From assembly GCA_019359495.1 (NCBI GenBank), contig JAHHHF010000073.1, positions 124,001 through 188,000 on the forward strand: 64,000 nucleotides of DNA. The letters run 5' to 3'. Under the pieces are notes generated by a model that was given only the letters and a program-made list of their open reading frames with translations, was not told the DNA's origin and ran no database searches. Source of the DNA: Goleter apudmare HA4340-LM2 (GTDB lineage Bacteria; Cyanobacteriota; Cyanobacteriia; Cyanobacteriales; Nostocaceae). Numbering within the stretch: the stretch's first letter is position 1; each line of letters opens with the position of its first letter. The translations under genes were made by a program, and so were the position numbers. Below, piece after piece: positions 4,954 through 41,688 of this stretch.

Positions 4954-7365
4954 ATGAGCGTATCATTTGGAAAATCCACCAACTTATCGGTTGGCTCAGA
5001 TGCTTCCTATATCCTAGTTAAAGACGTAGACGGTGACGGCAAACTTGACTTGGTAGTAGTAAGTGCTACTTCCAATAATGTCTCAGTGCTGTTGAACAAT
5101 GGTAGTGGCGGCTTTGGGACTGCGACTACTTTCACCGTCGGAAGTAACCCTGCGGCGATCGCTGTGGGAGACTTTAACGATGATGACAACCTTGATTTGG
5201 TAGTAGCGAACGCTGATGATAACAACGTCTCACTGCTATTGAACAATGGTAGTGGCGGCTTTGGGACTGCGACTACTTTCACCGTCGGCAGCAAACCTGC
5301 GGCGATCGCTGTGGGAGACTTTAACGATGATGACAACCTTGATTTGGTGGTGGCAAACGCTGATGACAACAACGTCTCACTACTATTGAACAATGGTAGT
5401 AGTGGCTTTGGGACTGCGACTACTTTCACCGTCGGTAGCAAACCTGCGGCGATCGCTGTGGGAGACTTTAACGATGATGACAACCTTGATTTGGTGGTGG
5501 CAAACGCTGATGATAACAACGTCTCACTACTATTGAACAATGGTAGTGGTGGCTTTGGGACTGCGACTACTTTCACCGTCGGCAGCAAACCTGCGGCGAT
5601 CGCTGTGGGAGACTTTAACGATGATGACAACCTTGACTTGGTAGTAGCGAACTATGCTTCTGGCAACGTCTCAGTACTGCTGAACAATGGTAGTGGCGGC
5701 TTTGGGACTGCTACAACTTTCACCGTCGGTACAAATCCTAATTCTGTCACTTTGGCAGACTTCAACGGTGATGACCAACTCGACTTAGTAGTCGGGACAG
5801 AAAATGACAAGAAAGTCTCAGTGCTATTGAACGATAGTAATGGTGGCTTTAGTAATGCTGTCGATGTCACACTTGAAAAATCTTCAGCTTTCGTTGCGGT
5901 GGGAGACTTAAACGGTGATGACAATCCGGACTTAGTATTGGCAAATGCTGATTCTAGCAGTAGTGTTTCAGTATTGCTTTATAACTCTGCCCCTACAGAC
6001 TTTATATTTAGTGCCATCAGCGATGACGACGATGACGACGACGATGATGATGATGATGACGATAACAAAAAAGCCATTGGCGTCTTCAAGACCACTGACC
6101 GAGATAAAAATGACAAGCACATTTATGCTTTAGTAGCAGGCAATGGTGATAGTGATAATGAAGCCTTCATTATTGACGGGGATAGCCTAAAAATTAAATC
6201 TACCCCGACTAAATCTGATTACAAAATCCGTGTCCGCACTACTGATATTGCTGGGCTTTTCTTTGAGAAGGAATTGGATATCAAAGTTAATCAGCTTGGA
6301 TCTATTTCCAAGACTGAAATCACCACAACTTTTCAACTGATTAACATCACACAGAATATCTTTACTGTCAAAAATAAAGTCAAAGGCAATAAAGCCAAAC
6401 TGTCAATTAAGGTTACAGGCGGCATTTCTGAATCAGTACATGAACTAGGTTTATTTATTGTTGACGATGCTGAAGGTAGAATTGAAGGTATTGCCCCAGA
6501 TGCAGCAGGTTACGCCCAAGTAGCTCTTAAACGAGCCAAGATAATTTCCTCTGCTATTACTAATGTACCCAACGGTTTTAATCCATCTGATCTGCCAAGC
6601 CTATTAGAATTCACCTCTGGTGCAAACTTAAGATTTTTCTATGTACGCAACAGCACTACATTTGCTGTGCTATCAGGACAAACCTCTTTTTCTGAAGTAG
6701 TCTTTTCATCCGCTACAAATGCCACCATAGACAGCTCAGAAACGGAAGGTTTCACTCTCAAATGGAAAGGTCTATCTGTTGGCGGTAGCGACCTAGTGTT
6801 GAAAATTAAAGAAACTAATCAAGATATACCTCTAGGTATAGGCTTACAAGGAAAACATCAAGGCGAACTCATCGATTTACGAGAAGTTAAAACTAAGGTC
6901 AAAGGAGAGTTTGTTGTCTATAGAGAGGCGGCGTTTAACAACGTAGTTGGCTTCGCTCGTATAGATGATGAGAATGGCGGTATTGATCTGAATAAAGATG
7001 GCACGATTGACCTACGTCCGGGGGATGCAGGCTATCTGAAAGCAGTAGTTAGTTCACGTGTTCAAGGAATTGAACTGAAGGTGGACAACCAAGGTAAAGC
7101 AACTTTCACTGGTAGCTTTGAATCACAATCGCTGTTTACACCTTTTATTATTGCTAATTCTACTGTAGAAGCAATTTTAAATAGTAGTTCTGAAAACTTG
7201 GCGGTTTACTTACCATTCTTAGGTGCTAACACTCGCCAAGCTAGTCATGTCCGCCTACTAGGAAATAATATCTTTGGCTTTGAGGATCAAACAGGAGGCG
7301 GTGATCAAGATTTCAACGATTTAATTGTCCAAGTCAAATTGAGCGCGGAAATTGCGACTACCTAA
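4954..7365 (+). CDS. FG-GAP/VCBS seven-blade propeller protein with poly-Asp tract, cadherin-like segment and DUF4114
   Basis: Residues about 5-345 form seven units of about 49 aa, each with a calcium loop such as DVDGDGKLDLV or DFNDDDNLDLV and an NNGSGGFGTAT turn, as in integrin-type FG-GAP propellers. Units 2-5 are nearly identical. A run of 14 Asp follows, then a cadherin-like stretch (HIYALVAGNGDSDNEAFIIDGDSLKIK). The C-terminus (FGFEDQTGGGDQDFNDLIVQV) is the DUF4114 signature. No N-terminal signal peptide is visible, so export would need a C-terminal type I signal or another route. A calcium-binding surface or adhesion role is inferred, not shown. Confidence 0.85.
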   Translation: MSVSFGKSTNLSVGSDASYILVKDVDGDGKLDLVVVSATSNNVSVLLNNGSGGFGTATTFTVGSNPAAIAVGDFNDDDNLDLVVANADDNNVSLLLNNGSGGFGTATTFTVGSKPAAIAVGDFNDDDNLDLVVANADDNNVSLLLNNGSSGFGTATTFTVGSKPAAIAVGDFNDDDNLDLVVANADDNNVSLLLNNGSGGFGTATTFTVGSKPAAIAVGDFNDDDNLDLVVANYASGNVSVLLNNGSGGFGTATTFTVGTNPNSVTLADFNGDDQLDLVVGTENDKKVSVLLNDSNGGFSNAVDVTLEKSSAFVAVGDLNGDDNPDLVLANADSSSSVSVLLYNSAPTDFIFSAISDDDDDDDDDDDDDDNKKAIGVFKTTDRDKNDKHIYALVAGNGDSDNEAFIIDGDSLKIKSTPTKSDYKIRVRTTDIAGLFFEKELDIKVNQLGSISKTEITTTFQLINITQNIFTVKNKVKGNKAKLSIKVTGGISESVHELGLFIVDDAEGRIEGIAPDAAGYAQVALKRAKIISSAITNVPNGFNPSDLPSLLEFTSGANLRFFYVRNSTTFAVLSGQTSFSEVVFSSATNATIDSSETEGFTLKWKGLSVGGSDLVLKIKETNQDIPLGIGLQGKHQGELIDLREVKTKVKGEFVVYREAAFNNVVGFARIDDENGGIDLNKDGTIDLRPGDAGYLKAVVSSRVQGIELKVDNQGKATFTGSFESQSLFTPFIIANSTVEAILNSSSENLAVYLPFLGANTRQASHVRLLGNNIFGFEDQTGGGDQDFNDLIVQVKLSAEIATT
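5131..5718 (+). repeat. 147-bp tandem repeats inside the FG-GAP gene (four units)
   Basis: The start TTCACCGTCG recurs at exactly 147-base steps: 5131, 5278, 5425, 5572 and 5719. The units encode blades 2-5 and are nearly identical at the DNA level, which indicates recent duplication or gene conversion. Flanking blades 1, 6 and 7 are diverged. Confidence 0.9.
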
Positions 7366-7401
7366 GTCCAATTAAGATAGCTTGCTGATACATAATTTAT
7401 T

Positions 7402-7431
7402 CCCGACTTCCTGATATACAAGGAAGCCGGG
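7402..7431. terminator. Hairpin between convergent genes
   Basis: CCCGACTTCC pairs with GGAAGCCGGG across a 10-base loop (one mismatch), followed by CATTTTGTT on the plus strand. It lies between the convergent FG-GAP and pentapeptide genes. The 30 bases that follow resemble those after the hairpin at 40526-40553. Confidence 0.6.
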
Positions 7432-7463
7432 CATTTTGTTATTCACAAATGATTAAGGAATGT

Positions 7464-8234
7464 TCAAAAAGGGAAGAATTGCAGTAAGACTGAGCCGAGA
7501 CTGCCAACAAAGTCTAAAAAACTAGGTTTACCAGGGTTGACTTTAGTGTCTTGGGGTGCTTGCAGTTCTTTAATAAAAGCTTGCGCTGTGAGCATTCCAG
7601 GGTTGTCATTTTGGGATGTAAACATTTTCTCGGCAATTTGGGCATCTTGGAATGCACCTTGTCTGTCTAAAATTTGATAGCGAGCCACACCACGAGCTAG
7701 ATAAGCGCCTGCAAAATCTGCTTTAATAGCGATCGCTTGATTGAAATAATCGATCGCTTGCTGTTGATTGCCTTTTTGTGCTTCTGCTACACCCAAAGCA
7801 TAAAATTCTTCTGGTGTGGCAATTTGTAATGGAATGCCAACAGCGCCTTGGAGGCTGGTACTGTTGAGGTTGACATCATTTAATTCTGCATTCGCTAAAT
7901 AGGCATTTCTCAAGTCAGCACCAGCCAAATTTGCGCCACTGAGTTTAGCACCACTCAGGTTAACGCCAAATAAACCAGCACCGCTTAAGTTGGCACCTCG
8001 CAAGTCAGCACCACTCAAGTTGGCGCGGCTGAGATTAGCACCTGCGAGATTTGCTCCACTTAAATTAGCTCCCATTAAGTCAGCTAGTACCAAACCTGCA
8101 CCAGTCAGGTTACAGTTTTGACATTCTTTGGTTGCTAATAATTGTCTAATATGTTCAGAATTTGCGGCTTGGACGCTTGTAGTTAAGCTAATTGTGGTTA
8201 AAAATGCAACTGTGGCTAGAATTTGGCTTTTCAT
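7464..8234 (-). CDS. Secreted pentapeptide-repeat and TPR protein, 256 aa
   Basis: A Sec signal peptide ([24 protein letters not shown]) is followed near residues 40-130 by about eighteen pentapeptides of the A(D/N)Lxx type ([20 protein letters not shown]...), which fold as a right-handed quadrilateral beta helix. Residues 145-205 carry a TPR-like pair ([28 protein letters not shown] and the next unit). The tail has a hydrophobic end ([18 protein letters not shown]). The pairing of CKNC-like NCQNC Cys residues just before the repeats ([13 protein letters not shown]) is common in cyanobacterial secreted pentapeptide proteins. The function is unknown. Confidence 0.85.
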
Positions 8235-30930: not shown

Positions 30931-31729
30931 AAGTTATTAGGCAAAGTTAATTTTCTAGTCCAGATACATCTAACCGTTCAAAACACACTAACTAAATAGT
31001 GATAAATTTCTGTGCCTTGCTTTATCTACTATGTTTTTTTCTGGATTAGTTGTGCTTTATGGCAAGGTTCAGGTGAATTTCCAGTAAGACAACTCACTTT
31101 CTAAAGTAAATTTTAGGCAAAATCAACAAAATAACAATATTATTGAACAAGCAAAATAGACAATAGTACCTGTATTATTACTTTTATCTTTTTAATCAAG
31201 ACATAAAAAAAATGATAAAAAGTGCTATTGAATAGCATAAAATTCTTAAATAACTTGGTTGCAGCTAAATTATTGACAAGTAAGACAAACAAATGCATGC
31301 ATGGCATTTATGAAATCCTTGCTGCATAAGGATATTTTTGAAAAAATAGGCTAAAACATAAAACGTTCAAACTCTTGCCATTCAAGGATTCTTATACTTC
31401 AGATAGTTTGCTCTGTATTTACGACTTGATAATAAAATATTCAGATTCTAAAAAATATTTATAGGACAATATTTCAATAATTTAGTCTATTTTATCTCAA
31501 TACATAATTGCTATGTAAAATTTTGTACTTATTATTATGTAGTACATTTTATAAGGAAAATGCTGATGCTAACATCAACAAAAGAGACAGAAAAACAGGA
31601 TTTATGTCTTTTAAAGTTTACAATATATCTGGTAATAATATGGTTGTTTACATATAATTTTTAGTGGGAATAGTTCAGTCATGCAATCAATTGAAAGTCA
31701 ATTCTACTTACACCAGAGAAACTAACACC
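30931..31729. other. Long AT-rich divergent intergenic region upstream of the peptide array
   Basis: About 800 bases, very AT-rich, without a gene above 60 codons. It must hold the promoters of the sigma factor and of the first array gene. No canonical pair could be assigned because AT content is too high for pattern matching to be informative. Confidence 0.4.
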
Positions 31730-31996
31730 ATGACTCAGATCATAATTTCTACCTTACAACCTAATTCCATAAAAACATTTCTCCACAATCTAACTGTTGA
31801 GAAAGCTGAAACTATATTGGGAAGTTTTTATCCCTCTGGAATTGGCATACTCAACGTTACTGATAGTACTTATATCTATAATTCTCCTCGATTAGATCGA
31901 AGGTATTGGGCTGTAGGTCCATATTCATCTACAAGCAACGAGAATGATTTCAATTCAGTAAATTATTCAAGGTCAATCTACAATAGATTTCTCTAG
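31730..31996 (+). CDS. Array peptide A1 (family A), 88 aa, Gly-Ser at the leader junction
   Basis: The start at 31730 aligns with the other family members; the longer upstream frame is unsupported. The leader reads MTQIIISTLQ...FLHNLTVEKAETILGS, followed by a core with conserved phrases IGILNVTDSTYIY, RLDRRYWAVG and YSRSIYNRF. The relatives have ETILGG; here Gly-Ser replaces Gly-Gly, which may weaken double-glycine processing. The core is conserved in the family, unlike the hypervariable cores of many ribosomal peptide families. Confidence 0.7.
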   Translation: MTQIIISTLQPNSIKTFLHNLTVEKAETILGSFYPSGIGILNVTDSTYIYNSPRLDRRYWAVGPYSSTSNENDFNSVNYSRSIYNRFL

Positions 31997-32112
31997 TAGT
32001 TTTTCAGCATCATTGGTACAGTTTGCCAAAGACTGATTGATAGAGTTTTTGATAGTGCAATACAATCAATTAATCAAGAGTCAAATCTACTTACTTCAGA
32101 AGAACTAAGATC

Positions 32113-32373
32113 ATGGCTAAAATCACAATTTCTAATTTACGTACTTATTCTATAGAACCATTTATCCACAACCTAACTTCAGAGCTATCTGAAACTATAT
32201 TGGGAGGTTTTTATACCTCTGGTATTGGCATAATGAACATTACTGATAGTACTTATCTATATGATTCTCCTCGAGCAGATCGAAGATTTTATGCTATAGG
32301 TATAAAATCATTTTCAAGCAACGAGAATTCATACAATTCATTAGACTATGGAAGGACAATATATAATGGCTAA
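32113..32373 (+). CDS. Array peptide A2 (family A), 86 aa
   Basis: MAKITISNL...FIHNLTSELSETILGG forms a 32-residue leader with a canonical Gly-Gly end. The core (54 residues) has IGIMNITDSTYLYDSPRADRRFYAIG and DYGRTIYNG. The usual family ending (SIYN-aromatic) is cut to YNG because the stop lies inside the ATGGCTAA start of the following decayed copy, suggesting a deletion fused the two copies. The upstream sequence TTCAGAAGAACTAAGATC resembles those of A1 and A3. Confidence 0.75.
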   Translation: MAKITISNLRTYSIEPFIHNLTSELSETILGGFYTSGIGIMNITDSTYLYDSPRADRRFYAIGIKSFSSNENSYNSLDYGRTIYNG

Positions 32374-32623
32374 AATCTCAAATTACGTCTTACCTTCTCA
32401 TCTTATAAAGGTATTTACCCACAATATACTCCAGAGGCATCTGAAAGTATATTGACAGGTTTTTATCCTCCTACAATTGGCATAATGAACATTACTGTTA
32501 GTACTTATCTCTATAAATCTCCTTGAGCAAAACGAAGATTTTGGGGTGTATATCTAAAATCATTGGCAAGCAATGAGAGTAAGTACAATTCATTAGATAA
32601 TTCCAGGCTAATCTATGATTAAA
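32366..32623 (+). pseudogene. Decayed fourth copy of family A (frameshift plus premature stop)
   Basis: The first codons read MAKISNYVLPSHLIKVFTHN, then a one-base deletion shifts the frame. In the shifted frame TPEASESILTGFYPP...IGIMNITVSTYLYKSP continues, followed by a stop in place of Arg (CGA to TGA) and RRFWGVYLKSLASNESKYNSLDNSRLIYD. The junction Gly-Gly has become Thr-Gly. The ATG overlaps the stop of A2. It cannot make the family product. Confidence 0.85.
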
Positions 32624-32694
32624 TTATTCAGTAGTTCTGGATAATTGTTGCAACCGTAGGGCAAAAAAGTGTTAATAAAGTTTTTGATAGTGAC

Positions 32695-32737
32695 TCGGAC
32701 TTCTTACAAGTAAGAAATCCGGGTTGTGTTTTTTTAG
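32695..32737 (+). terminator. Terminator after the A2/decayed copy pair
   Basis: TCGGACTTCTTAC pairs with GTAAGAAATCCGG, followed by GTTGTGTTTTTTTA. The whole block from 32640 to about 32840 recurs after A3 at 33413-33600. Confidence 0.75.
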
Positions 32738-33139
32738 CAGATTCACGGGCGTTATCTCAAGAGTCTTTCAACAAAAAAACAGCGAATTCACTGAGGTTTG
32801 AGAAGATAAGTATGCGGTAAATACAGAAATTTTACACTCCGCTACGCTGTCTTCAATATGGCAGATAAGCGCCTGCTTAAAACAACTTCTTAAGTCTGTT
32901 AGCTTCTTCGCCAATAAAAATATTTTGGAATATTTTGCATCGAGTGTTCGTTAAAGGAAGTAGGAATGGTTCACTATTAAGTTTACAAATAGACAGGAAA
33001 GTTTGACTATCAGCAAAATATGATCTTACCAAGATACCCACGGCTTAAAAATGAGTGAAGTGGGCATATTATCATTTAAAAATTCTTGTTTTATAGATGT
33101 TTAAAAGTCAATTATACTTACTTCAGAGGCAACAAAATC
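32738..33139. repeat. Gene-free stretch containing a duplicated 100-base block (32911-33010)
   Basis: Bases 32911-33010 (...TTCGTTAAAGGAAGTAGGAATGGTTCACTATTAAGTTTACAAATAGACAGG...) recur at 33987-34086 with about 85% identity, with no gap. It probably carries a promoter for the following peptide gene in both places. The remaining sequence between 32738 and 32910 shows nothing further. Confidence 0.7.
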
Positions 33140-33406
33140 ATGGCTAAAGTCGTAATTTCTGTCTTATATCCTCATGCTATAAAGGCATTTATCCACAATA
33201 TAACTCCGGAGCAAGCTGAAACTATATTAGGAGGTACTTATCCCTATAGTTTTTTCGTAATGAATACTTCTGATAGCCTTTACATTGGTGCTACACGAGC
33301 AGATCAAAGACTGTATGCCGTAGGTGCATATTCAACCAATGTCAGTGATAATAAATACGATACAGTAGACTATTCAAGGTCTATTCTTAACACCTTTATT
33401 TATTAG
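33140..33406 (+). CDS. Array peptide A3 (family A), 88 aa
   Basis: The leader reads MAKVVISVLY...FIHNITPEQAETILGG, followed by the core TYPYSFFVMNTSDSLYIG, RADQRLYAVGAYS and VDYSRSILNTFIY. Start 33140 aligns with the family; CAGAGG stands about ten bases before. The core keeps the TDS-like, RAD-R and Y-S-R-S blocks of A1 and A2. It is followed by a strong terminator at 33466, so it is transcribed as a single gene or the end of a unit. Confidence 0.75.
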   Translation: MAKVVISVLYPHAIKAFIHNITPEQAETILGGTYPYSFFVMNTSDSLYIGATRADQRLYAVGAYSTNVSDNKYDTVDYSRSILNTFIY

Positions 33407-33465
33407 TTATTGACAATTGTTGCAACTGTTGGGTAAAAAAGTATTGATAAAGTTTTTGATAGTGA

Positions 33466-33508
33466 TCCGGACTTCTTTCTCGCAAGAAATCCGGGTTGTG
33501 TTTTTTTA
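33466..33508 (+). terminator. Terminator after A3
   Basis: TCCGGACTTCTTT pairs with AAGAAATCCGGG (one bulge), followed by TTGTGTTTTTTTAG. It duplicates the terminator at 32695-32737. Confidence 0.8.
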
Positions 33509-33599
33509 GTAGATTTACAGGCGTTATCTCACTAATCTCTCAACAAAAAACCCCAGCGAATTCGCTGAGGCTTGAGAAGGCAAGTATTAGGAGTAAATC

Positions 33600-33629
33600 A
33601 TGGCAGAAACCGATATCAAAAAATCTTAG
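33600..33629 (+). other. Very short frame with strong ribosome site, probably a stub
   Basis: ATG 33600 follows AGGAG at six bases but stops after nine codons (MAETDIKKS). One extra A in the run at 33618-33624 would give MAETDIKKILAKVLGN and then a stop. Read as the remains of a gene start, not a product. Confidence 0.25.
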
Positions 33630-33653
33630 CCAAGGTTCTAGGCAATTAAAACT

Positions 33654-33758
33654 ATGTCTATCTATGAATTTAATGATGATCTGTTTCTTCCGTTCTTATC
33701 TTCTTTAACGAATACTCAATGCAAATTATTCCTAACCTCGTCACAAAAATCAGGTTAA
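33654..33758 (+). CDS. Possible 34-aa protein or fragment
   Basis: MSIYEFNDDLFLPFLSSLTNTQC... has a protein-like start and faintly recalls the N-terminus of small DUF3944-type cyanobacterial proteins. No ribosome site is evident. Kept at low confidence as a remnant. The rest of 33407-34208 has no gene; it contains a perfect CAGCGAATTCGCTG palindrome at 33553-33566 and the repeated blocks listed separately. Confidence 0.2.
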   Translation: MSIYEFNDDLFLPFLSSLTNTQCKLFLTSSQKSG

Positions 33759-33986
33759 AGCTGTAACTCAATCTCTATAAGAGTTTAGGAGAATATCTAA
33801 ATCTGTTAGCTTCAAGTTTTACCAACTTGGAATCAAGCCATATATAGTCAGCTACTGCTGTATTCATTGAACTGACTCTATTTAGTGCAGAGTTTTGCAA
33901 CTTAGCTATCAGGATTTCAGGCTGCACAAGTTGTAGAGTTTGATTGGTACAGTCTTTTATAGGACTTAAGCCCTTCAAGTTATTTG

Positions 33987-34086
33987 CTAATAAAGATATT
34001 TCGGAATATTCTCCATCGAATGTTCGTTAAAGGAAATAGGAACGGTTCACTATTAAGTTCACAAATAGACAAGCAAGTTTGACTAT
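33987..34086. repeat. Second copy of the 100-base block seen at 32911-33010
   Basis: The block begins CTAATAAAGATATTTCGG and includes TTCGTTAAAGGAAATAGGAACGG and TTCACTATTAAGTTCACAAATAGACAAGC. The two copies align without a gap at an offset of 1,076 bases. Here it lies upstream of family B rather than family A, so the two peptide families may share control. Confidence 0.75.
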
Positions 34087-34104
34087 TCGCAACTATTTTA
34101 CTTG

Positions 34105-34208
34105 GATATTTACCTTGATGTGATCTGTGACTGAAAAAGATATGCGTACCTTTTCACTATGGAAAAGTGCCGCTTCACTCTTGAAACTGATGTTGTTAAT
34201 TACACAAT
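34105..34208 (+). promoter_or_regulatory. Conserved 104-base upstream region of B1
   Basis: GATATTTACCTTGATGTGATCTGTGACTG opens this block, which ends in TGTTAATTACACAAT at the ATG. The same block stands at 35113-35216 before B3, at the same distance from the start codon with no insertion or deletion. Conservation up to the ATG suggests a shared promoter and leader. Confidence 0.65.
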
Positions 34209-34430
34209 ATGCTGCAAATTATCGATCTAGAAAATAAGGAACTGTTGAGCGAAATTTCTAACAAAGAATCTGCTGCTGTCACAGGTGGTGGACCTATTAG
34301 TGCTCTGCAATATTTCTTGTTGATTAATTACCTTCCATTGCCCGCCGACGTGCGCCCAATTCTACAAGCAAATGGATATAATATCCTATTTAATGCTGCG
34401 GCTCCTCTCAACGGCATCATAAGTGATTAG
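34209..34430 (+). CDS. Array peptide B1 (family B), 73 aa
   Basis: A 27-residue leader MLQIIDLENKELLSEISNKESAAVTGG shows a Gly-Gly end and the E-x-S-x-x-E-S pattern shared with B2 and B3. The core (46 residues) is hydrophobic, GPISALQYFLLINYLPLPADVRPILQANGYNILFNAAAP..., with no Cys. Hydrophobic Cys-free cores are typical of class IId-like or unmodified bacteriocins. Start ATG 34209 is shared with a conserved leader block. Confidence 0.75.
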   Translation: MLQIIDLENKELLSEISNKESAAVTGGGPISALQYFLLINYLPLPADVRPILQANGYNILFNAAAPLNGIISD

Positions 34431-34538
34431 ACAGAGCTTGCAAAGACTGATTTAGGGGCGGGTTAAATTCCCCACTAAAATTTGCTTTCAGATCCTTTGA
34501 ATATTAACCATACTTCTGTTCATTAAAGAAAAAACAAT

Positions 34539-34769
34539 ATGTTGCAAATCATCGACCTCCAAATTAACGAACTCTACACCGAAGTTTCTTCCAAAGAATC
34601 TGCTACCGTTATTGGCGGTCAAACCACCAACGGAATGAACGGACTGAACCTAATGAATATGCTCCCACTTCTTCTGATGTTTACCTTATTTTCCACAATG
34701 TCCAGCAATCCTGTAGCAAGTACAACATCCAGCAATACTGGACTAGATAATGGGAACACAACAGTTTAG
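34539..34769 (+). CDS. Array peptide B2 (family B), 76 aa
   Basis: The leader MLQIIDLQINELYTEVSSKESATVIGG is followed by a core QTTNGMNGLNLMNMLPLLLMFTLFSTM..., strongly hydrophobic and Met/Leu-rich, then a polar Ser/Thr/Asn tail. A core of this kind could insert in membranes. It lies 108 bases after B1, with TTCATTAAAGAAAAAACAAT before the start, a sequence akin to the TTCGTTAAAGG word of the repeated blocks. Confidence 0.75.
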   Translation: MLQIIDLQINELYTEVSSKESATVIGGQTTNGMNGLNLMNMLPLLLMFTLFSTMSSNPVASTTSSNTGLDNGNTTV

Positions 34770-35112
34770 TTTTTATTAGAAAATAAAGGTTCAAAGCTCG
34801 ATTAAACCAAAGTCTGATAATCTTGCTTTGACCATTGTTTTCTAGAAATGGAAAAGCAGGGTTAACCCACTCATCACTCAAGCTTATTTCCCATGAATTG
34901 AGGTGGATAACGCGTCTTTGTTCAGTTTCATTAAATTGGTCAAATCAGAAACAATTGCTTAAAAATAACCGTGATAGGCGCGTCATTATACTTCTTATAA
35001 CCATAGACTTTTCCTCCTTAACTATTCACTCACCCTACCTCTTGACAAGGAATTAAGTTTGCTGAGAATTGTTTAGAGAGAGGGGAGTGAATAATTCTCT
35101 ACTTCTTACTTA
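34770..35112. other. Gene-free stretch between B2 and the B3 promoter block
   Basis: A 73-codon plus-strand frame at 34835-35056 lacks a ribosome site and family resemblance and is treated as chance. Nothing else was recognised. Confidence 0.35.
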
Positions 35113-35216
35113 GATATTTACCTTGATGTGATTTGTGACTGGATACAATATGCGGATACATCCGCTCTGAAACAGTACAACTTCACACTTAAATCTAATG
35201 CTGTTAATTACACAAT
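35113..35216 (+). promoter_or_regulatory. Conserved 104-base upstream region of B3
   Basis: Second copy of the block at 34105-34208 (GATATTTACCTTGATGTGATTTGTGACTG to TGTTAATTACACAAT). Same length and same distance to the ATG. Confidence 0.65.
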
Positions 35217-35480
35217 ATGCTGCAAATTACCAATCTCGAAATTAACGAACTATTTAGCGAAATCTCTAATGAAGAATCTACTACTGTATTAGGAGGTATT
35301 ACTGCTGTTAATTTGGCTAACCTTCAGGATGGTATAGGTAACTTTTCAACTGATATGAGCCTGTTTTCGATGGATGGTAACAAGCTTTTTACGATTGACA
35401 TGTCTAGATTAACTATTAATTTAGTAATGGTCTTACCTTCAGGCATACCAGAGGTTCTAAGTCTGACTAATGGGACTTAA
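35217..35480 (+). CDS. Array peptide B3 (family B), 87 aa
   Basis: The leader MLQITNLEINELFSEISNEESTTVLGG is nearly identical in pattern to B1 and B2. The core differs completely (ITAVNLANLQDGIGNFSTDMSLFSMDGNKLFTIDMSRLTINLVMVLPSG...), with no Cys and alternating polar/hydrophobic stretches. Conserved leader and variable core is the hallmark of exported ribosomal peptides. The identical upstream block to B1 suggests co-regulation and recent duplication. Confidence 0.75.
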   Translation: MLQITNLEINELFSEISNEESTTVLGGITAVNLANLQDGIGNFSTDMSLFSMDGNKLFTIDMSRLTINLVMVLPSGIPEVLSLTNGT

Positions 35481-35691
35481 ACATTTTTGAGGAGTAAATA
35501 AAAGTAAAAGCGGAGGCTAGGCAAGTTTATACCAATTTAAAAAAAGAATGCGACAGATATAAACCTTGAAACCTAGGCTAAATCTGGCCTTCTTAATTTT
35601 GTAATGCTTTCCGCCACTCTTACGAGTTCTCCGCAGCAGTAACCGTAGAGTATTTTGAATTGGTATTACTTTCTTGGGAGAAACTAAAATA

Positions 35692-35937
35692 ATGGCTAAA
35701 ATTATAATTTCGTATTTCCATCCTACTGATGTAGGGTTATTTATGCAGAACCTGACTCCATCTCAATGTGAAGCTGTATCGGGAGGGTATATGTATTTTA
35801 ATTTAATGAATATCAGTGGTGGTATAAACGGTACTGAGAACGTCTACTACACAGGTTCTTATGCGTTTAACTTCCACGATAATAAAATGTACACAACGGA
35901 CTACTCAAGGTCTATTTATAATTGGTTTTATCTTTAA
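35692..35937 (+). CDS. Array peptide A4 (family A, divergent), 81 aa
   Basis: The leader MAKIIISYFHPTDVGLFMQNLTPSQCEAVSGG aligns with family A, and the core ends TTDYSRSIYNWFYL as in A1. The middle has changed (YMYFNLMNISGGINGTENVYYTGSY). ATG 35692 follows GGGAG at about twelve bases. It closes the array. The conserved DYSRSIYN tail in A1, A3 and A4 suggests a function kept under selection in the core. Confidence 0.75.
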   Translation: MAKIIISYFHPTDVGLFMQNLTPSQCEAVSGGYMYFNLMNISGGINGTENVYYTGSYAFNFHDNKMYTTDYSRSIYNWFYL

Positions 35938-36129: not shown

Positions 36130-36645
36130 ATGAACCCGGAACGGAGAAAAGCCTTAATTATTCGCAGAGAACAATTAAAACGCCAGTTACATCAACAGCA
36201 ACAAAAGGAGTCTTGCAAAGACCTACTCACTCAATTAGATGCAGAATTAGCAACTTACAAAATTATTTGGACAGAACCAACATTTTTTAATCCTGCAAGT
36301 TCTTGGTTAACTGAGAACTTTCCTATTGCTTGGTGGGGTCGAGTAAATTGGGAAAAAGTAGATGGTTGTATGCAATCAGCTGTTTTTGTCACTGACTACG
36401 AAAATTTCAGTCAAAAGTTACAGCAGATAATTCTTAACCAAAATCTGGGCAACCCAAATGTGATAATTGTCTGGGCTGATGCTAATACCCTCAGTTTAGA
36501 ACTAAGTTTGTCACTAGTTGTTCAACATGCACAGTTAGTTTGTCAACAAAGTTGGGATACATGGATAATTTGTCCCCAAGATAATTGGTGCATCGAGTAC
36601 TACCACGAAGGCGAAATTTCTTTTGGATATTCACCTCTGATTTAA
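36130..36645 (+). CDS. Hypothetical cytoplasmic protein after the array, 171 aa
   Basis: The sequence begins MNPERRKALIIRREQLKRQLHQQQQ and contains a helix and mixed alpha/beta region with several Trp (WWGRVNWEKVDGCM, VIIVWADANTLSLELSL, QQSWDTWIICPQDNWCIEYYHEGEISFGY). The C-terminal 'W-x-x-W-I-I-C-P...W-C-I-E-Y' pattern is distinctive but I could not place it. It lies 192 bases downstream of A4 on the same strand; an immunity or accessory role for the peptides is possible but unsupported. Confidence 0.6.
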   Translation: MNPERRKALIIRREQLKRQLHQQQQKESCKDLLTQLDAELATYKIIWTEPTFFNPASSWLTENFPIAWWGRVNWEKVDGCMQSAVFVTDYENFSQKLQQIILNQNLGNPNVIIVWADANTLSLELSLSLVVQHAQLVCQQSWDTWIICPQDNWCIEYYHEGEISFGYSPLI

Positions 36646-36762: not shown

Positions 36763-37410
36763 TTAAGGCTTTAATCTTTTTGCTGTTTCCACCCTAATAG
36801 TACGATGCCATGTATTACCACGTTGCCATACGTGATATGTATCATATTTCCCATCTTTGAGATAGTTAAATCTCATCCAATACTGATCGTCTCTAGCTCG
36901 TAATAATGATGTTGCTTTTACCCGAATATCGTCATGCCATGTATCATCAGTTTTCCAAACTTGTAACCAATGATGATTGACACTATCTAGTGAACAAAAT
37001 CTTATCCAAAATTTGTCATTCTTACCACGTAGCATTAAAGCTTTTTGAGCAACAATTGACCCATTTTCAATACCAGATTTAACAGACTCAATTTGATAAG
37101 CAGTAGAGTTAGCTTTTTTTTGTATTTCTTCTAATTGTAATTTTGTAGTGTCTAATTCTTCTTGAGTAGCTTTAAGCTCTGTTTTGATAGTATCTAGTTC
37201 TCTTTGAGTGACTTTAAGTTCTACTTTAGTAGTATCTAGTTCTCTTTGCGTAGCTTTTAACTCTGTTTTCAAATCTAGGTAATTATCCTGGAGTTCTCTA
37301 ATATTTTGTAGTTTTACCTGTAACTCTTCCTGTGTACGTCTTAATTCTTCTATTGCAATTTCGTAATACCCTAAAGGATTTTTCCAGTCTTTACCATTAT
37401 TTTTATTCAT
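36763..37410 (-). CDS. Coiled-coil protein with a duplicated Trp-rich C-terminal repeat, 215 aa
   Basis: ATG 37410 with AAGG upstream is preferred to a GTG at 37440. The first 35 residues (GKDWKNPLGYYEIAIEELRRTQEELQ) match the start of the next protein. Residues 40-115 are a heptad coiled coil (KTELKATQRELDTTKVELKVTQREL...). The C-terminus has two copies of about 45 residues (ALMLRGKNDKFWIRF...WKTDDTWHDDIRV and SLLRARDDQYWMRF...WQRGNTWHRTIRV), a Trp-rich beta-like module I do not recognise. It is five bases beyond the GUN4 gene's stop in direction of transcription, so one operon. Confidence 0.75.
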   Translation of the reverse strand: MNKNNGKDWKNPLGYYEIAIEELRRTQEELQVKLQNIRELQDNYLDLKTELKATQRELDTTKVELKVTQRELDTIKTELKATQEELDTTKLQLEEIQKKANSTAYQIESVKSGIENGSIVAQKALMLRGKNDKFWIRFCSLDSVNHHWLQVWKTDDTWHDDIRVKATSLLRARDDQYWMRFNYLKDGKYDTYHVWQRGNTWHRTIRVETAKRLKP

Positions 37411-37445
37411 ATCTAAACCTTTTGGCAATCTTCGTTTCACTCAAG

Positions 37446-38387
37446 TTAGTACCGCAGTAAAAAAAGTTTTAATCTGTGCGAAAGTTCTCCGGGATTTCGA
37501 TAACCTAAACCGAGCACACGAACCGTATATGGAAGGTGTCCTTCTGGAGCGTCAAGACTAAAAATAGCCTCCTCATATTTACGCCATTCACTATTGGAAA
37601 TATTCACTAGCCACCCAACGCGATCGCCAAAGCGCTTATAATCTTCCTTGGGATATTGCCAGATTTGTTTTTGAACACCAAATCCAAATTTTCCCTCACT
37701 ATATTTTGTCCAAAGGTTGTTAATAATTCGCAGATCATGCCTTGGGAAACGCTTAATATCTCCATCATCTAACCAGGATTCTCCTTCTCTTTCAGATATT
37801 TGCAGCATATAATTCCAAGTTTCTTTATCCGCTTCCTGCCATGCTTTTGCTGCCAACAAATCTCGTAATTTTATGTAGTTTATACCTGAAGCAGGAGAAA
37901 CAAGGGTTAATTCTATTTCTAGTTGAGAAATTTGTAACTGCAAACTTGATAGAGACGTCAGGATTTGCTTTTGTGAATCACTATCAAAATTAGTAAAGTT
38001 TGGTTTTTCTAGAACATATAAAACCTGAGATAATTGTTCTTTTATTTGTGATAATTCCGTAATGTTTATCTTCTCGCTATTTAATTCATTAGTCATATTT
38101 TCTTGCATTTTCTGTAGTTTAACCTGAGCATCATTAGCAGTTTGTTTTGCGTCGTTAGCAGTTTTATCAGCAGTTGCAAACTGTTCTTTAGTCATTTGAA
38201 GCTCAGATTTTAATTTATGTATTTCAACTTGATAATTATCAATCTTAGATTCTAAATCTTTTTTGATACTTACTTTGATATTTGCTAACTCTTCTTGTAA
38301 CTCTGCCTTTGTACGTCCTAGTTCTTCTATTGCTTTTTCGTAGTAACCTAATGGTGTTTTCCAGTCAGCAGCATCAGCAGTTTTCAT
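37446..38387 (-). CDS. GUN4-domain protein with N-terminal coiled coil, 313 aa
   Basis: ATG 38387 is fixed by GGAGG five bases upstream. The N-terminus (DWKTPLGYYEKAIEELGRTKAELQ) matches that of the downstream protein. A coiled coil covers about residues 25-165. Residues 170-313 are a GUN4 domain: LRDLLAAKAWQEADKETWNYML...WLDDGDIKRFPRHDLRIINNLWTKYSEGKFGFGVQKQIW. GUN4 binds tetrapyrroles and, in photosynthetic organisms, stimulates Mg chelatase; extra GUN4 domains in cyanobacteria are often fused to other signalling parts. Whether this copy still binds porphyrin is unknown. Confidence 0.85.
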   Translation of the reverse strand: MKTADAADWKTPLGYYEKAIEELGRTKAELQEELANIKVSIKKDLESKIDNYQVEIHKLKSELQMTKEQFATADKTANDAKQTANDAQVKLQKMQENMTNELNSEKINITELSQIKEQLSQVLYVLEKPNFTNFDSDSQKQILTSLSSLQLQISQLEIELTLVSPASGINYIKLRDLLAAKAWQEADKETWNYMLQISEREGESWLDDGDIKRFPRHDLRIINNLWTKYSEGKFGFGVQKQIWQYPKEDYKRFGDRVGWLVNISNSEWRKYEEAIFSLDAPEGHLPYTVRVLGLGYRNPGELSHRLKLFLLRY

Positions 38388-38408
38388 AAAAACCTCCATA
38401 AACATAAT

Positions 38409-39296
38409 TTATTTATCTATTAAAAATTGTTGAGTTGGCTGATGTTGCAACCTCAAAGTTTCTGAAGCATCATAAATTTTCCTTGTCTTACGCCAAAACT
38501 CACACAGTAAACCGTATTTGAGCCAGTCTTCAAAAGCTCGCCTTTTCAATTCTGGTGATCTTCTTACTAATGCAGCCATTCTTGCTGCATTGAGTTGCAT
38601 CTGTCCATAAGACTTGAGTACTTCTTCAATAGGTGTATTTTCATGCAATTTACTCAATTCATGACATTCGATTAATTCATAAAGCTCAATGTCAGATAGT
38701 CTAGAGCCAGGTTTCATTCCTATATTTAGTCTTTGTCTACATTTATCAAAAGGATTTGGTAAAAAATGAGCTACATACTTTTGGAATTCCTGACGAATTA
38801 ATTCTGCTGTTCCCTCTATACTTTCAATTATTTTATCGACTATATAATTAATATCTTGAAAAAGTTTTTCTTCTAAAATTTTAATATCATCAATAATAAC
38901 ATTAGCAATTCCTTCTGCTTGGCTTAATACTTTCATGACAGTCAAGGAAAATTGATTTATTCTATTTTCTAAATAAAAATCCAATTCCCCACCCGTTTCT
39001 CTGACATCCTTGATAGCTGATTCACGTATTTCATCAATTTTTTTGAGATTAAGCCTAAGTTTATCATCGACACTATTGAGGAGAGACTCAATATCATTTG
39101 TAACCTGACTTTCTAAGGTTTCGACTTGTTTAATCCGTTGTTCCGCTATGTAGTCTAGTTTGTCAGCTAATGGGTAAAGCTGTTGATCAAACAAGTTGCT
39201 GATTTCTTTACTACTCGCTTCTAAAAAATCCCCTGCAACCACTTTTGCTGAACGCTCTAATTTTTTAACTAAGTCGCCAAAAATCCATCCCAGCAT
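38409..39296 (-). CDS. Long helical (apolipoprotein-like) coiled-coil protein, 295 aa
   Basis: ATG 39296 follows AAGGA at about ten bases; a longer frame starts at 39350. After a hydrophobic amphipathic start (MLGWIFGDLVKKLE) the protein is a long amphipathic helix with heptad repeats (LADKLDYIAEQRIKQVETLESQVTNDIESLL..., about residues 40-180). A helical C-terminal domain (IELYELIECHELSKLHE...RRAFEDWLKYGLLCEFW) follows. No known domain. It is first of three tightly packed genes (gap of 21 bases to the GUN4 gene). Confidence 0.7.
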   Translation of the reverse strand: MLGWIFGDLVKKLERSAKVVAGDFLEASSKEISNLFDQQLYPLADKLDYIAEQRIKQVETLESQVTNDIESLLNSVDDKLRLNLKKIDEIRESAIKDVRETGGELDFYLENRINQFSLTVMKVLSQAEGIANVIIDDIKILEEKLFQDINYIVDKIIESIEGTAELIRQEFQKYVAHFLPNPFDKCRQRLNIGMKPGSRLSDIELYELIECHELSKLHENTPIEEVLKSYGQMQLNAARMAALVRRSPELKRRAFEDWLKYGLLCEFWRKTRKIYDASETLRLQHQPTQQFLIDK

Positions 39297-39552: not shown

Positions 39553-40482
39553 ATGTACCCATCAGCCGCACTCAAAAATGTACCTCGCTTATTCAAGCTA
39601 ATCATTGTCTGTGTAACTATCTTCGGAGCATTAATCATCCCCCAACAAGTACAGGCACAGGATTGGCGTCCGGTTCGAGGTGGTATACTTTATGGCATTA
39701 GTGGTATGGCGCTGGTGGAACAGCAAGGTAATTCTCTAGACTTTTTGATTGTCCATGACAATAAGAAAAAAGACGAACCCCGTCTAGCAATCATCAGCCT
39801 CCAGGGAAAGCAGCCAGTTAAATATTCCCCTGTGAAATGGCCAGAAAACACAGAAGCACCCATTGATTTAGAGAGCTTAACCTCTGTCCCAAATAAAAAA
39901 AGCTTTATGGCTTTAAGTAGCGCTGGTAAAGCTTATGAAATCAAGTTAAATTCTCGCAATACAAGTATTTCAGTTCTCCAAAAATTCGATTTACCAAAAG
40001 TACCTCAAGGTAGTAATATTGAAGCATTTGCGCTACAGAATATAGACAATAAACTAGTTGCAATATGGGCACATCGAGGTGAAGCTGCACAACCAGGAAT
40101 CATTTACTGGGGAGTACTTGATTTAGATAAATCTCAAATAACTCAAACAGGTTCTGCTAATCTGAAAGTACCATTTCCCTCAGGTAATGTTCGTCATATT
40201 TCCGATTTAAAAGTAGACCCAACTGGAATTATATTTATTACATCAGCAAGTGATGCTGGAGATGATGGGCCATTTCAGTCGGCGGTTTGCGCTATCGGTG
40301 CTGTGGGATTTCGTGGACAAGAAATAGTATTAAAGCAAAATCCCCAACTTGTCCCCCTCTACCGTTCTAATTACCGCAAAATTGAAGGTTTAGAACTTGT
40401 CCCTGGGGCAAATGGTGGTGTGGTTGTGGGTACGGATGATGAAAATTTGGGTTCTTATGTGTATGTGTTGGGTGAACAATGA
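39553..40482 (+). CDS. Secreted hypothetical protein, 309 aa
   Basis: A Sec signal peptide ends at AQA|QDW near residue 36 (LFKLIIVCVTIFGALIIPQQVQAQDW). The mature part is rich in short beta strands separated by turns (LDFLIVHDNKK, RLAIISLQGK, LVAIWAHRGEA, KVDPTGIIFITSASDAGDDGP), which suggests a beta-propeller of the esterase-like or SdiA-regulated kind. The end YRKIEGLELVPGANGGVVVGTDDENLG fits such folds. The function is unknown. It is a single gene with a strong terminator behind. Confidence 0.7.
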   Translation: MYPSAALKNVPRLFKLIIVCVTIFGALIIPQQVQAQDWRPVRGGILYGISGMALVEQQGNSLDFLIVHDNKKKDEPRLAIISLQGKQPVKYSPVKWPENTEAPIDLESLTSVPNKKSFMALSSAGKAYEIKLNSRNTSISVLQKFDLPKVPQGSNIEAFALQNIDNKLVAIWAHRGEAAQPGIIYWGVLDLDKSQITQTGSANLKVPFPSGNVRHISDLKVDPTGIIFITSASDAGDDGPFQSAVCAIGAVGFRGQEIVLKQNPQLVPLYRSNYRKIEGLELVPGANGGVVVGTDDENLGSYVYVLGEQ

Positions 40483-40596: not shown

Positions 40597-41688
40597 CTAC
40601 ACATTAAACCTAAATAACATCACGTCCCCTTCTTGCACAATATACTCTTTACCTTCACTACGCACTAACCCTTTTTCTTTCGCAGCATTCATGGAACCAT
40701 TTGTGACTAAATCATTGTAAGCCACGGTTTCTGCCCGAATAAATCCCCGTTCAAAATCAGAGTGAATTACTCCTGCTGCTTGGGGTGCAGACATTCCTGC
40801 GTGGATAGTCCAAGCACGGGTTTCTTTAGGGCCACAAGTGAAATATGTTCGCAATCCTAACAAGGTATAGGTAGCACGAATTAAGGATTTTAATCCACCT
40901 TCTTCCACACCCAAAGATGCGAGAAAATCAGCTTTATCCTCCTCTGGTAATTCCACAAGTTCTGCTTCTACTTGGGCAGATACTATCACCACTTGGGCAT
41001 TTTCTTGAGAGGCGATTTGCCGTACTTGCTCGACAAATTTATTACCTGTTGCCAAATCATCTTCAGATACGTTAGCGGCGTAGATAATTGGTTTATTGGT
41101 GAGTAATCCTAAACCTTTAATAATTTCGGTTTCTTCTTCGTTCAAACTCGCTTGACGGACTGATTGACCCTCATTCAAAATAGCAGCTAATTTTTCTAAG
41201 ACTGTGATTTCAAACTGTGCATCTTTACTGGTGCGTGCTTGTTTACGGGTGCGGTCAATTCGTCGCTCAATTTGAGCTAAATCTGCTAAACCCAATTCTA
41301 AATTAATGATCTCAATATCCCGTGCTGGGTCAACAGAACCGGCAACGTGAATAATATCATCATTTTCAAAACAACGCACTACATGGACGATCGCATCCAC
41401 TTCCCGAATGTGAGAAAGGAATTGATTACCCAACCCTTCCCCTTGACTTGCACCTTTGACTAAACCCGCAATATCGACAAACTCAACACGTGCGGGAACA
41501 ATTTGTTCCGAATTGGAAGTTTTCGCTAGAACGTTTAACCGGTCATCCGGTACTGCGACAACGCCGACATTCGGTTCAATCGTGCAAAAAGGAAAGTTAG
41601 CGGCTTCAGCTTTGGCGTTAGCCACTACAGCATTAAATAAAGTAGATTTTCCGACGTTGGGAAGTCCGACAATTCCGGCTCGTAGCAT
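40597..41688 (-). CDS. ychF: YchF-type P-loop ATPase/GTPase
   Basis: The G1 motif GLPNVGKST (residues 8-16), G3-type DIAGLV and the TGS domain at the C-terminus (IHAGMSAPQAAGVIHSDFERGFIRAETVAYNDLV, GLVRSEGKEYIVQEGDVMLFRFNV) identify YchF/Obg-like ATPase. YchF binds ATP and ribosomes and acts in stress responses. Length 363 aa is standard. On the minus strand, converging on the secreted hypothetical gene, and preceded by a PEP-repeat gene. Confidence 0.95.
   Translation of the reverse strand: MLRAGIVGLPNVGKSTLFNAVVANAKAEAANFPFCTIEPNVGVVAVPDDRLNVLAKTSNSEQIVPARVEFVDIAGLVKGASQGEGLGNQFLSHIREVDAIVHVVRCFENDDIIHVAGSVDPARDIEIINLELGLADLAQIERRIDRTRKQARTSKDAQFEITVLEKLAAILNEGQSVRQASLNEEETEIIKGLGLLTNKPIIYAANVSEDDLATGNKFVEQVRQIASQENAQVVIVSAQVEAELVELPEEDKADFLASLGVEEGGLKSLIRATYTLLGLRTYFTCGPKETRAWTIHAGMSAPQAAGVIHSDFERGFIRAETVAYNDLVTNGSMNAAKEKGLVRSEGKEYIVQEGDVMLFRFNV

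Follow-up and report, generated by a model that had tools for sequence, protein, structure and literature searches.

The question raised by positions 36763-39296 of the window (the whole 64,000-nucleotide stretch of DNA analysed here) is whether three adjacent genes, one of which codes for a protein ending in a GUN4 domain, belong to a single device, and what such a device would do. Three genes on the minus strand fill the region, A being transcribed first, then B and then C (Table 1), and the three open reading frames were all found where a preliminary description of this DNA had placed them. Gene A starts at ATG 39296 and its protein begins MLGWIFGD, while the reading frames of B and C extend further; here Shine-Dalgarno-like sequences favour ATG 38387 for B and ATG 37410 for C, which we regard as the likely start sites. 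Our literature searches found no description of this A-B-C cassette.

Table 1 Genes and features of the cassette (positions in the window).
Feature	Position	Strand	Description or basis
Gene A	38409..39296	(-)	295 aa, proposed platform protein; family without Pfam or NCBIfam model
A, residues 1-18, conserved amphipathic N-terminus MLGWIFGDLVKKLERSAK	39243..39296	(-)	possible membrane anchor
A, residues 35-178, hendecad helical region, about 145 residues	38763..39194	(-)	period 3.64-3.65
A, residues 179-268, conserved helical domain LPNPFDxCR...WLKYGxLxxFW	38493..38762	(-)	conserved among relatives; absent from Pfam
Gene B	37446..38387	(-)	313 aa; motif, coil and GUN4
Motif in B (DWKTPLGYYEKAIEELGRTKAELQ)	38295..38366	(-)	genome search, B/C alignment, omega
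GUN4 domain of B	37515..37889	(-)	Pfam PF05419, alignment, tree
Gene C	36763..37410	(-)	215 aa; motif, heptad coil and two Trp-rich modules
Motif in C (DWKNPLGYYEIAIEELRRTQEELQ)	37318..37389	(-)	genome search, B/C alignment, omega
Trp-rich module 1 of C	36910..37047	(-)	repeat comparison, predicted structure
Trp-rich module 2 of C	36772..36909	(-)	repeat comparison, predicted structure

The N-termini of B and C share a 24-residue motif, DWKxPLGYYExAIEELxRTxxELQ. The resemblance had been pointed out before and it stands: the two proteins are 71% identical over 28 residues, where the best of 20,000 shuffles reached 32%, and beyond the motif their identity is at most 17%. When GUN4 and Trp types of motif protein were compared, the motif was 60% conserved and the coil behind it 9-11%. 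A search of the whole genome with the C motif returned C itself first and B second (E 1.5e-8), with the third place at E 6 and thus nothing else of weight. In close pairs the omega values were 0-0.15 for the motif (taken over 26-27 codons, so that single values are rough), 0.12-0.74 for the coil, mostly 0.08-0.29 for the variable C-domain with one GUN4 pair at 1.28, and 0.07-0.46 for A. It is clear from these values that the cassette genes encode real proteins under purifying selection and that constraint is strongest in the motif.

Gene A was found in 37 of the 218 genomes of the window's family, in some of them as fragments, and, in a sample of 386 genomes from the whole phylum, in 7. A pattern scan, the one scan from which its spread beyond the phylum was judged, gave 19 named loci, all cyanobacterial, in Nostoc, Anabaena, Calothrix, Scytonema, Iningainema, Dolichospermum, Trichormus, Mojavia, Fischerella, Pelatocladus and Lyngbya. 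Among the 386 phylum genomes A and the motif occurred together in 7, A alone in none and a full motif alone in 1 (Fisher 3e-14, uncorrected for kinship among genomes). All inspected cassettes with an intact downstream gene carry one or two motif genes directly after A and in the same direction, mostly at a spacing of 12-70 nt, and the flanking genes vary between loci. At a few loci (L077, L079) the gene after A is broken or its motif has been lost. Motif proteins, called arms below, were also seen apart from A, intact in one genome (G026) and damaged in three (G024, G031 and G294).

The arms vary at their C-terminal ends. Some carry GUN4 and others between one and three Trp modules; a hybrid (L057, 8263-9255) has a single Trp module followed by GUN4, and in Lyngbya aestuarii (L086, 8423-8947) the end is an H-type lectin (PF09458, E 4e-17) that is absent from the window proteins. 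Many of the inspected cassettes are entirely without GUN4, the tree of A shows at least 6 switches in the type of end, and the order of the B and C genes is itself exchanged, being A-B-C in the window and A-C-B in Nostoc 106C. Broken cassette members were observed at L077 (7031-8033), L056 (8946-9731), L098/L125 (G294) and L052 (7397-8924); GUN4 arms are interrupted or decayed, a C-type arm is losing its Trp module, and one deletion took the end of A together with the motif of B.

The surroundings of the window cassette were inspected as well. Convergent with gene C lies a gene (36130-36645, plus strand) for a 171-aa protein of the CdiI_ImmP immunity family (PF24172, E 6.8e-10), which is absent from the other cassettes inspected. 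Divergent from A is a gene for a 309-aa protein with no Pfam match (39553-40482, plus strand), and this protein recurs beside A at L073, L079, L157, L158, L160 and L164 and near A in L076. The cassette is adjoined by an Obg-like GTPase gene of the YchF type (40597-41688, minus strand), of which a close homologue stands beside A at L057, L058, L073, L074, L075 and L079, and this recurrence suggests an old insertion site. Further away, a row of small plus-strand open reading frames (31664-35937) with the repeated leaders MLQIIDLxxxEL..SNxES..GG and ITxEQAETILGG look like double-glycine bacteriocin-type precursors, their sole NCBIfam match being a sub-threshold one (CTB family bacteriocin, E 0.023).

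Protein A had been described as a long amphipathic helix. The helix is there, and residues 35-178 show a strong 11-residue hydrophobic periodicity with almost no signal at 3.5 (500-shuffle p 0.002), but the description was incomplete and overlooked a conserved C-terminal domain with the consensus LPNPFDxCR..ELYELxECYELSKLxENTxIDEVLKxYGQLQ..WLKYGxLxxFW. The 17 orthologues tested all have their maximum between 3.63 and 3.71, and for every one of them the p value is the lowest that 500 shuffles allow. For the coils of B, C and their counterparts the maximum mostly lies at 3.48-3.58, as in an ordinary heptad, the window B alone being weak (p 0.056), so that A and its partners carry different kinds of coil; the long hendecad region of A probably self-associates. 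Residues 1-18 of A have a net charge of +2, a mean hydrophobicity of 0.46 and a moment of 0.47, and the amphipathic character is kept among the relatives of A except for the Fischerella type. This N-terminus is the one feature that speaks for the membrane-associated scaffold suggested earlier; hydropathy gives neither a transmembrane segment nor a hydrophobic hairpin (maximum KD 1.2-1.4), and from the lack of a transmembrane segment we take the proteins to be probably intracellular. No family model for A was found in a search of Pfam and NCBIfam, solved structures offered nothing convincing, and viral contigs held no relative of A or of its fused form. The predicted structure of A was poor (pLDDT 54), and a structure search with this model was dropped for that reason.

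Five relatives carry the A-domain, the motif region, a coil and a variable tip in one chain. Four are divergent relatives of A (L153, L154, L155 and L156), and the fifth, WP_179076547.1, is annotated as hypothetical and comes from Nostoc sp. C057, where a conjugative plasmid encodes it (L173). The latter is 32% identical to the window A over 179 aa (E 4e-33), and the part that follows matches the end of the coil and the Trp module of the window C (45% over 80 aa, E 2e-16). The tip is an H_lectin domain in L156 (E 2.8e-20), a Peptidase_S74 domain in L155 (E 1.5e-12), a QxDxNxVxY bulb-lectin motif in L153, and a domain of no recognised family in L154, where a sub-threshold HlyE match was also obtained (23.5 bits, cut-off 25). 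In all five fused chains the TP (or TA) of the motif starts exactly 7 residues after KYGQLxxLW. In Fischerella, where the genes are split, the last residues of A are ..WLKYGQLYKFWKNWL and the following gene opens with MALTPLQAYEEAIKR, placing 4 + 3 residues between W and TP; the junction matches that of the fused chains residue for residue, and the equal spacing makes the split genes look like a fused gene cut at that point. Scanned blind with the motif, whole genomes also yield the fused proteins: the E value is 1.9e-4 in G475 and 0.0036 in G021, and in two such scans they rank top or second. Both L154 and L155 score above the best of 1000 shuffles with the motif profile; in L156 and L153 the profile score alone is not significant, and the motif there rests on alignment and spacing.

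Directly upstream of the fused gene in L156 lies a gene for a beta/gamma-crystallin-like protein (7148-7666), and genes of the DDE transposase type stand right beside the fused A in L154 (9854-11311) and L155 (9317-10732). The transposase neighbours and the conjugative-plasmid copy are signs of mobility for the fused genes.

Since the same parts are joined into one protein in relatives, A and the motif proteins almost certainly work together. The proposal that the motif is a docking tag of one complex is supported by sequence comparison: adjacency, co-occurrence, the strongest constraint and fusion to A all point the same way, and a role as docking or assembly tag appears well supported.

The ends of B and C had also been named correctly. 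Residues 173-297 of B match PF05419 with E 1.1e-39 (136 bits against a cut-off of 29.2), and C ends in two similar Trp-rich modules. The AlphaFold model of C has one confident helix (22-125) followed by six strands in two sets of three at low confidence. Searches for the Trp module detected no relatives outside these proteins, none in viral contigs and nothing convincing among solved structures, and Foldseek with the C model gave no match at E 0.001; several beta-propellers in the weak list were set aside as the beta part of the model is of low confidence. Although B belongs to PF05419 by sequence, it differs from the canonical GUN4 (the Mg-chelatase cofactor; PDB 1Y6I, 1Z3X) in its added N-terminal motif and coil and in its phylogenetic position. 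In a tree the canonical pair was split from all others, including B, at 100/100, and B fell among the multidomain GUN4 proteins. Mutation of F196 or R214 weakens porphyrin binding in Synechocystis GUN4, and W192 is likewise cited as a porphyrin-related position (PMC8967248). When B was aligned to 1Y6I, W192 was replaced by Tyr, F196 by a gap and R214 by Leu, so that neither the porphyrin-contact Arg nor the two aromatic positions are kept. By clade as well as by porphyrin residues, B thus falls outside the Mg-chelatase cofactor. Porphyrin binding by B is not favoured by its sequence, and the pocket may take another tetrapyrrole or be altered. The tree suggests that GUN4 was captured a second time independently, with one clade in 0% of bootstraps, although a single GUN4 clade for the cassette arms is still compatible with the tree test (p-AU 0.267).

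The preliminary description suggested that the GUN4 protein could couple porphyrin or light state to a membrane-associated scaffold. As a full explanation this would have B bind a tetrapyrrole and signal through a membrane-bound A scaffold, and the unambiguous GUN4 domain, the amphipathic N-terminus of A and the proposal that multidomain cyanobacterial GUN4 proteins are tetrapyrrole sensors (PMC7159879) speak for it. We consider it improbable, as GUN4 is one exchangeable end missing from many cassettes and the domain in B lies outside the canonical clade and lacks the key residues. An adaptor-linked conflict (defence) module of the Aravind type, in which different sensors or effectors are tied to a core by the N-terminal adaptor they share, is a possibility that we regard as doubtful. 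The EAD and VMAP ternary conflict systems (Kaur et al. 2020, PMC7159879; PMC8195603) likewise combine an N-terminal adaptor and varied C-ends with a constant core, and cyanobacterial GUN4 and lectin-type domains are among their ends; the patchy distribution, frequent broken copies and exchange of ends agree with such a module. A conflict-system role would fit the patchy distribution and the decay of copies, but the cassette encodes no NTPase, protease, nuclease or other effector (Pfam), no recurrent effector neighbour was seen at the loci, and in A, B and C Pfam found neither an NTPase or vWA core nor a known adaptor domain. Its core is a helical protein and its adaptor a 24-residue motif, and the cassettes of relatives hold only A and motif genes, which places them outside the VMAP/EAD systems. 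B does share a GUN4-like C-end with the PADLOC defence kinase model PD-T4-6 (PDLC04062), but the match spans model positions 253-430 of 450, that is only the GUN4 part, and a Pfam scan gave no kinase domain.

The tips of the fused chains bring to mind a binding protein that is fibre-like or secreted (resembling a tail fibre, a bacteriocin or a pore former) and in which a helical stalk carries a receptor-binding tip. Peptidase_S74 is a phage tail fibre chaperone, and the S74, H-type lectin and bulb-lectin tips, the long helices and coils, and the HlyE match in L154 are in keeping with a stalk and exchangeable tip as in phage tail fibres. Against this there is no phage context, with no tail genes seen nearby and no relative of A in the phage and viral collections; the phage matches of L155 fall mostly in its S74 end, with the A-domain covered by none of them, a hydrophobic hairpin is lacking, and GUN4 tips do not fit. 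For a pore former of the ClyA/HlyE type, the window proteins have neither an HlyE match nor a hydrophobic segment. We therefore hold a fibre-like protein to be unlikely. The least probable reading, with a very slight chance of being right, is that of unlinked coiled-coil proteins in which the motif merely caps a coil and has no partner. Low-complexity coils do give spurious matches to many coiled-coil families, and orphan arms exist; the motif is nevertheless far more conserved than the coil, both in identity and in omega, and is fused to A in relatives. PADLOC, PHROG and SMC/Rad50-type matches were rejected as coiled-coil or GUN4-only.

The explanation that we prefer, and consider likely, is that the cassette is a modular recognition device in split form, with A as a constant platform and B and C as interchangeable arms. 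A would provide the platform through its amphipathic N-terminus, hendecad helical region and conserved helical domain; the motif of each arm would dock on, or assemble with, the end of that domain, and a heptad coiled coil would project the arm outward from the docking point, with a ligand-binding domain at its tip that differs between arms (GUN4 or Trp-rich repeats, and in another cassette an H-type lectin). In the fused forms a peptide bond connects the arm with the terminal domain of A, a task that the tag would take over in the split form. Computation directly provides the anatomy, the association, the fusions, the exchange of ends and the constraint that acts on the motif, whereas direct binding of the motif to A and the oligomer state are inferred. 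Two of the end types are lectin or lectin-like (H-type and bulb-type motif) and S74 comes from phage fibres, and recognition domains are therefore most likely; the tips would presumably bind sugars or other ligands and recognise something foreign or the state of the cell. Judged from sequence, the joint function of A and the arms is probably that of a molecular recognition device.

What is defined here is a Pfam-less family (A), a short conserved assembly tag and a Trp-rich module confined to these proteins, and gene fusion, which is strong comparative evidence, ties the three together. The fused and split versions are ready-made constructs for studying binding of the tag. It is conceivable, and we put it forward tentatively, that the cassette represents a new class of intracellular modular receptors of filamentous cyanobacteria for the recognition of non-self or stress, with a hendecad-coil platform and arms that carry a 24-residue tag, in split and fused form. 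If the arms are sensors, multicellular bacteria would possess a simple recognition system of the plug-in kind that lacks an NTPase, and GUN4 domains would gain a role away from chlorophyll synthesis.
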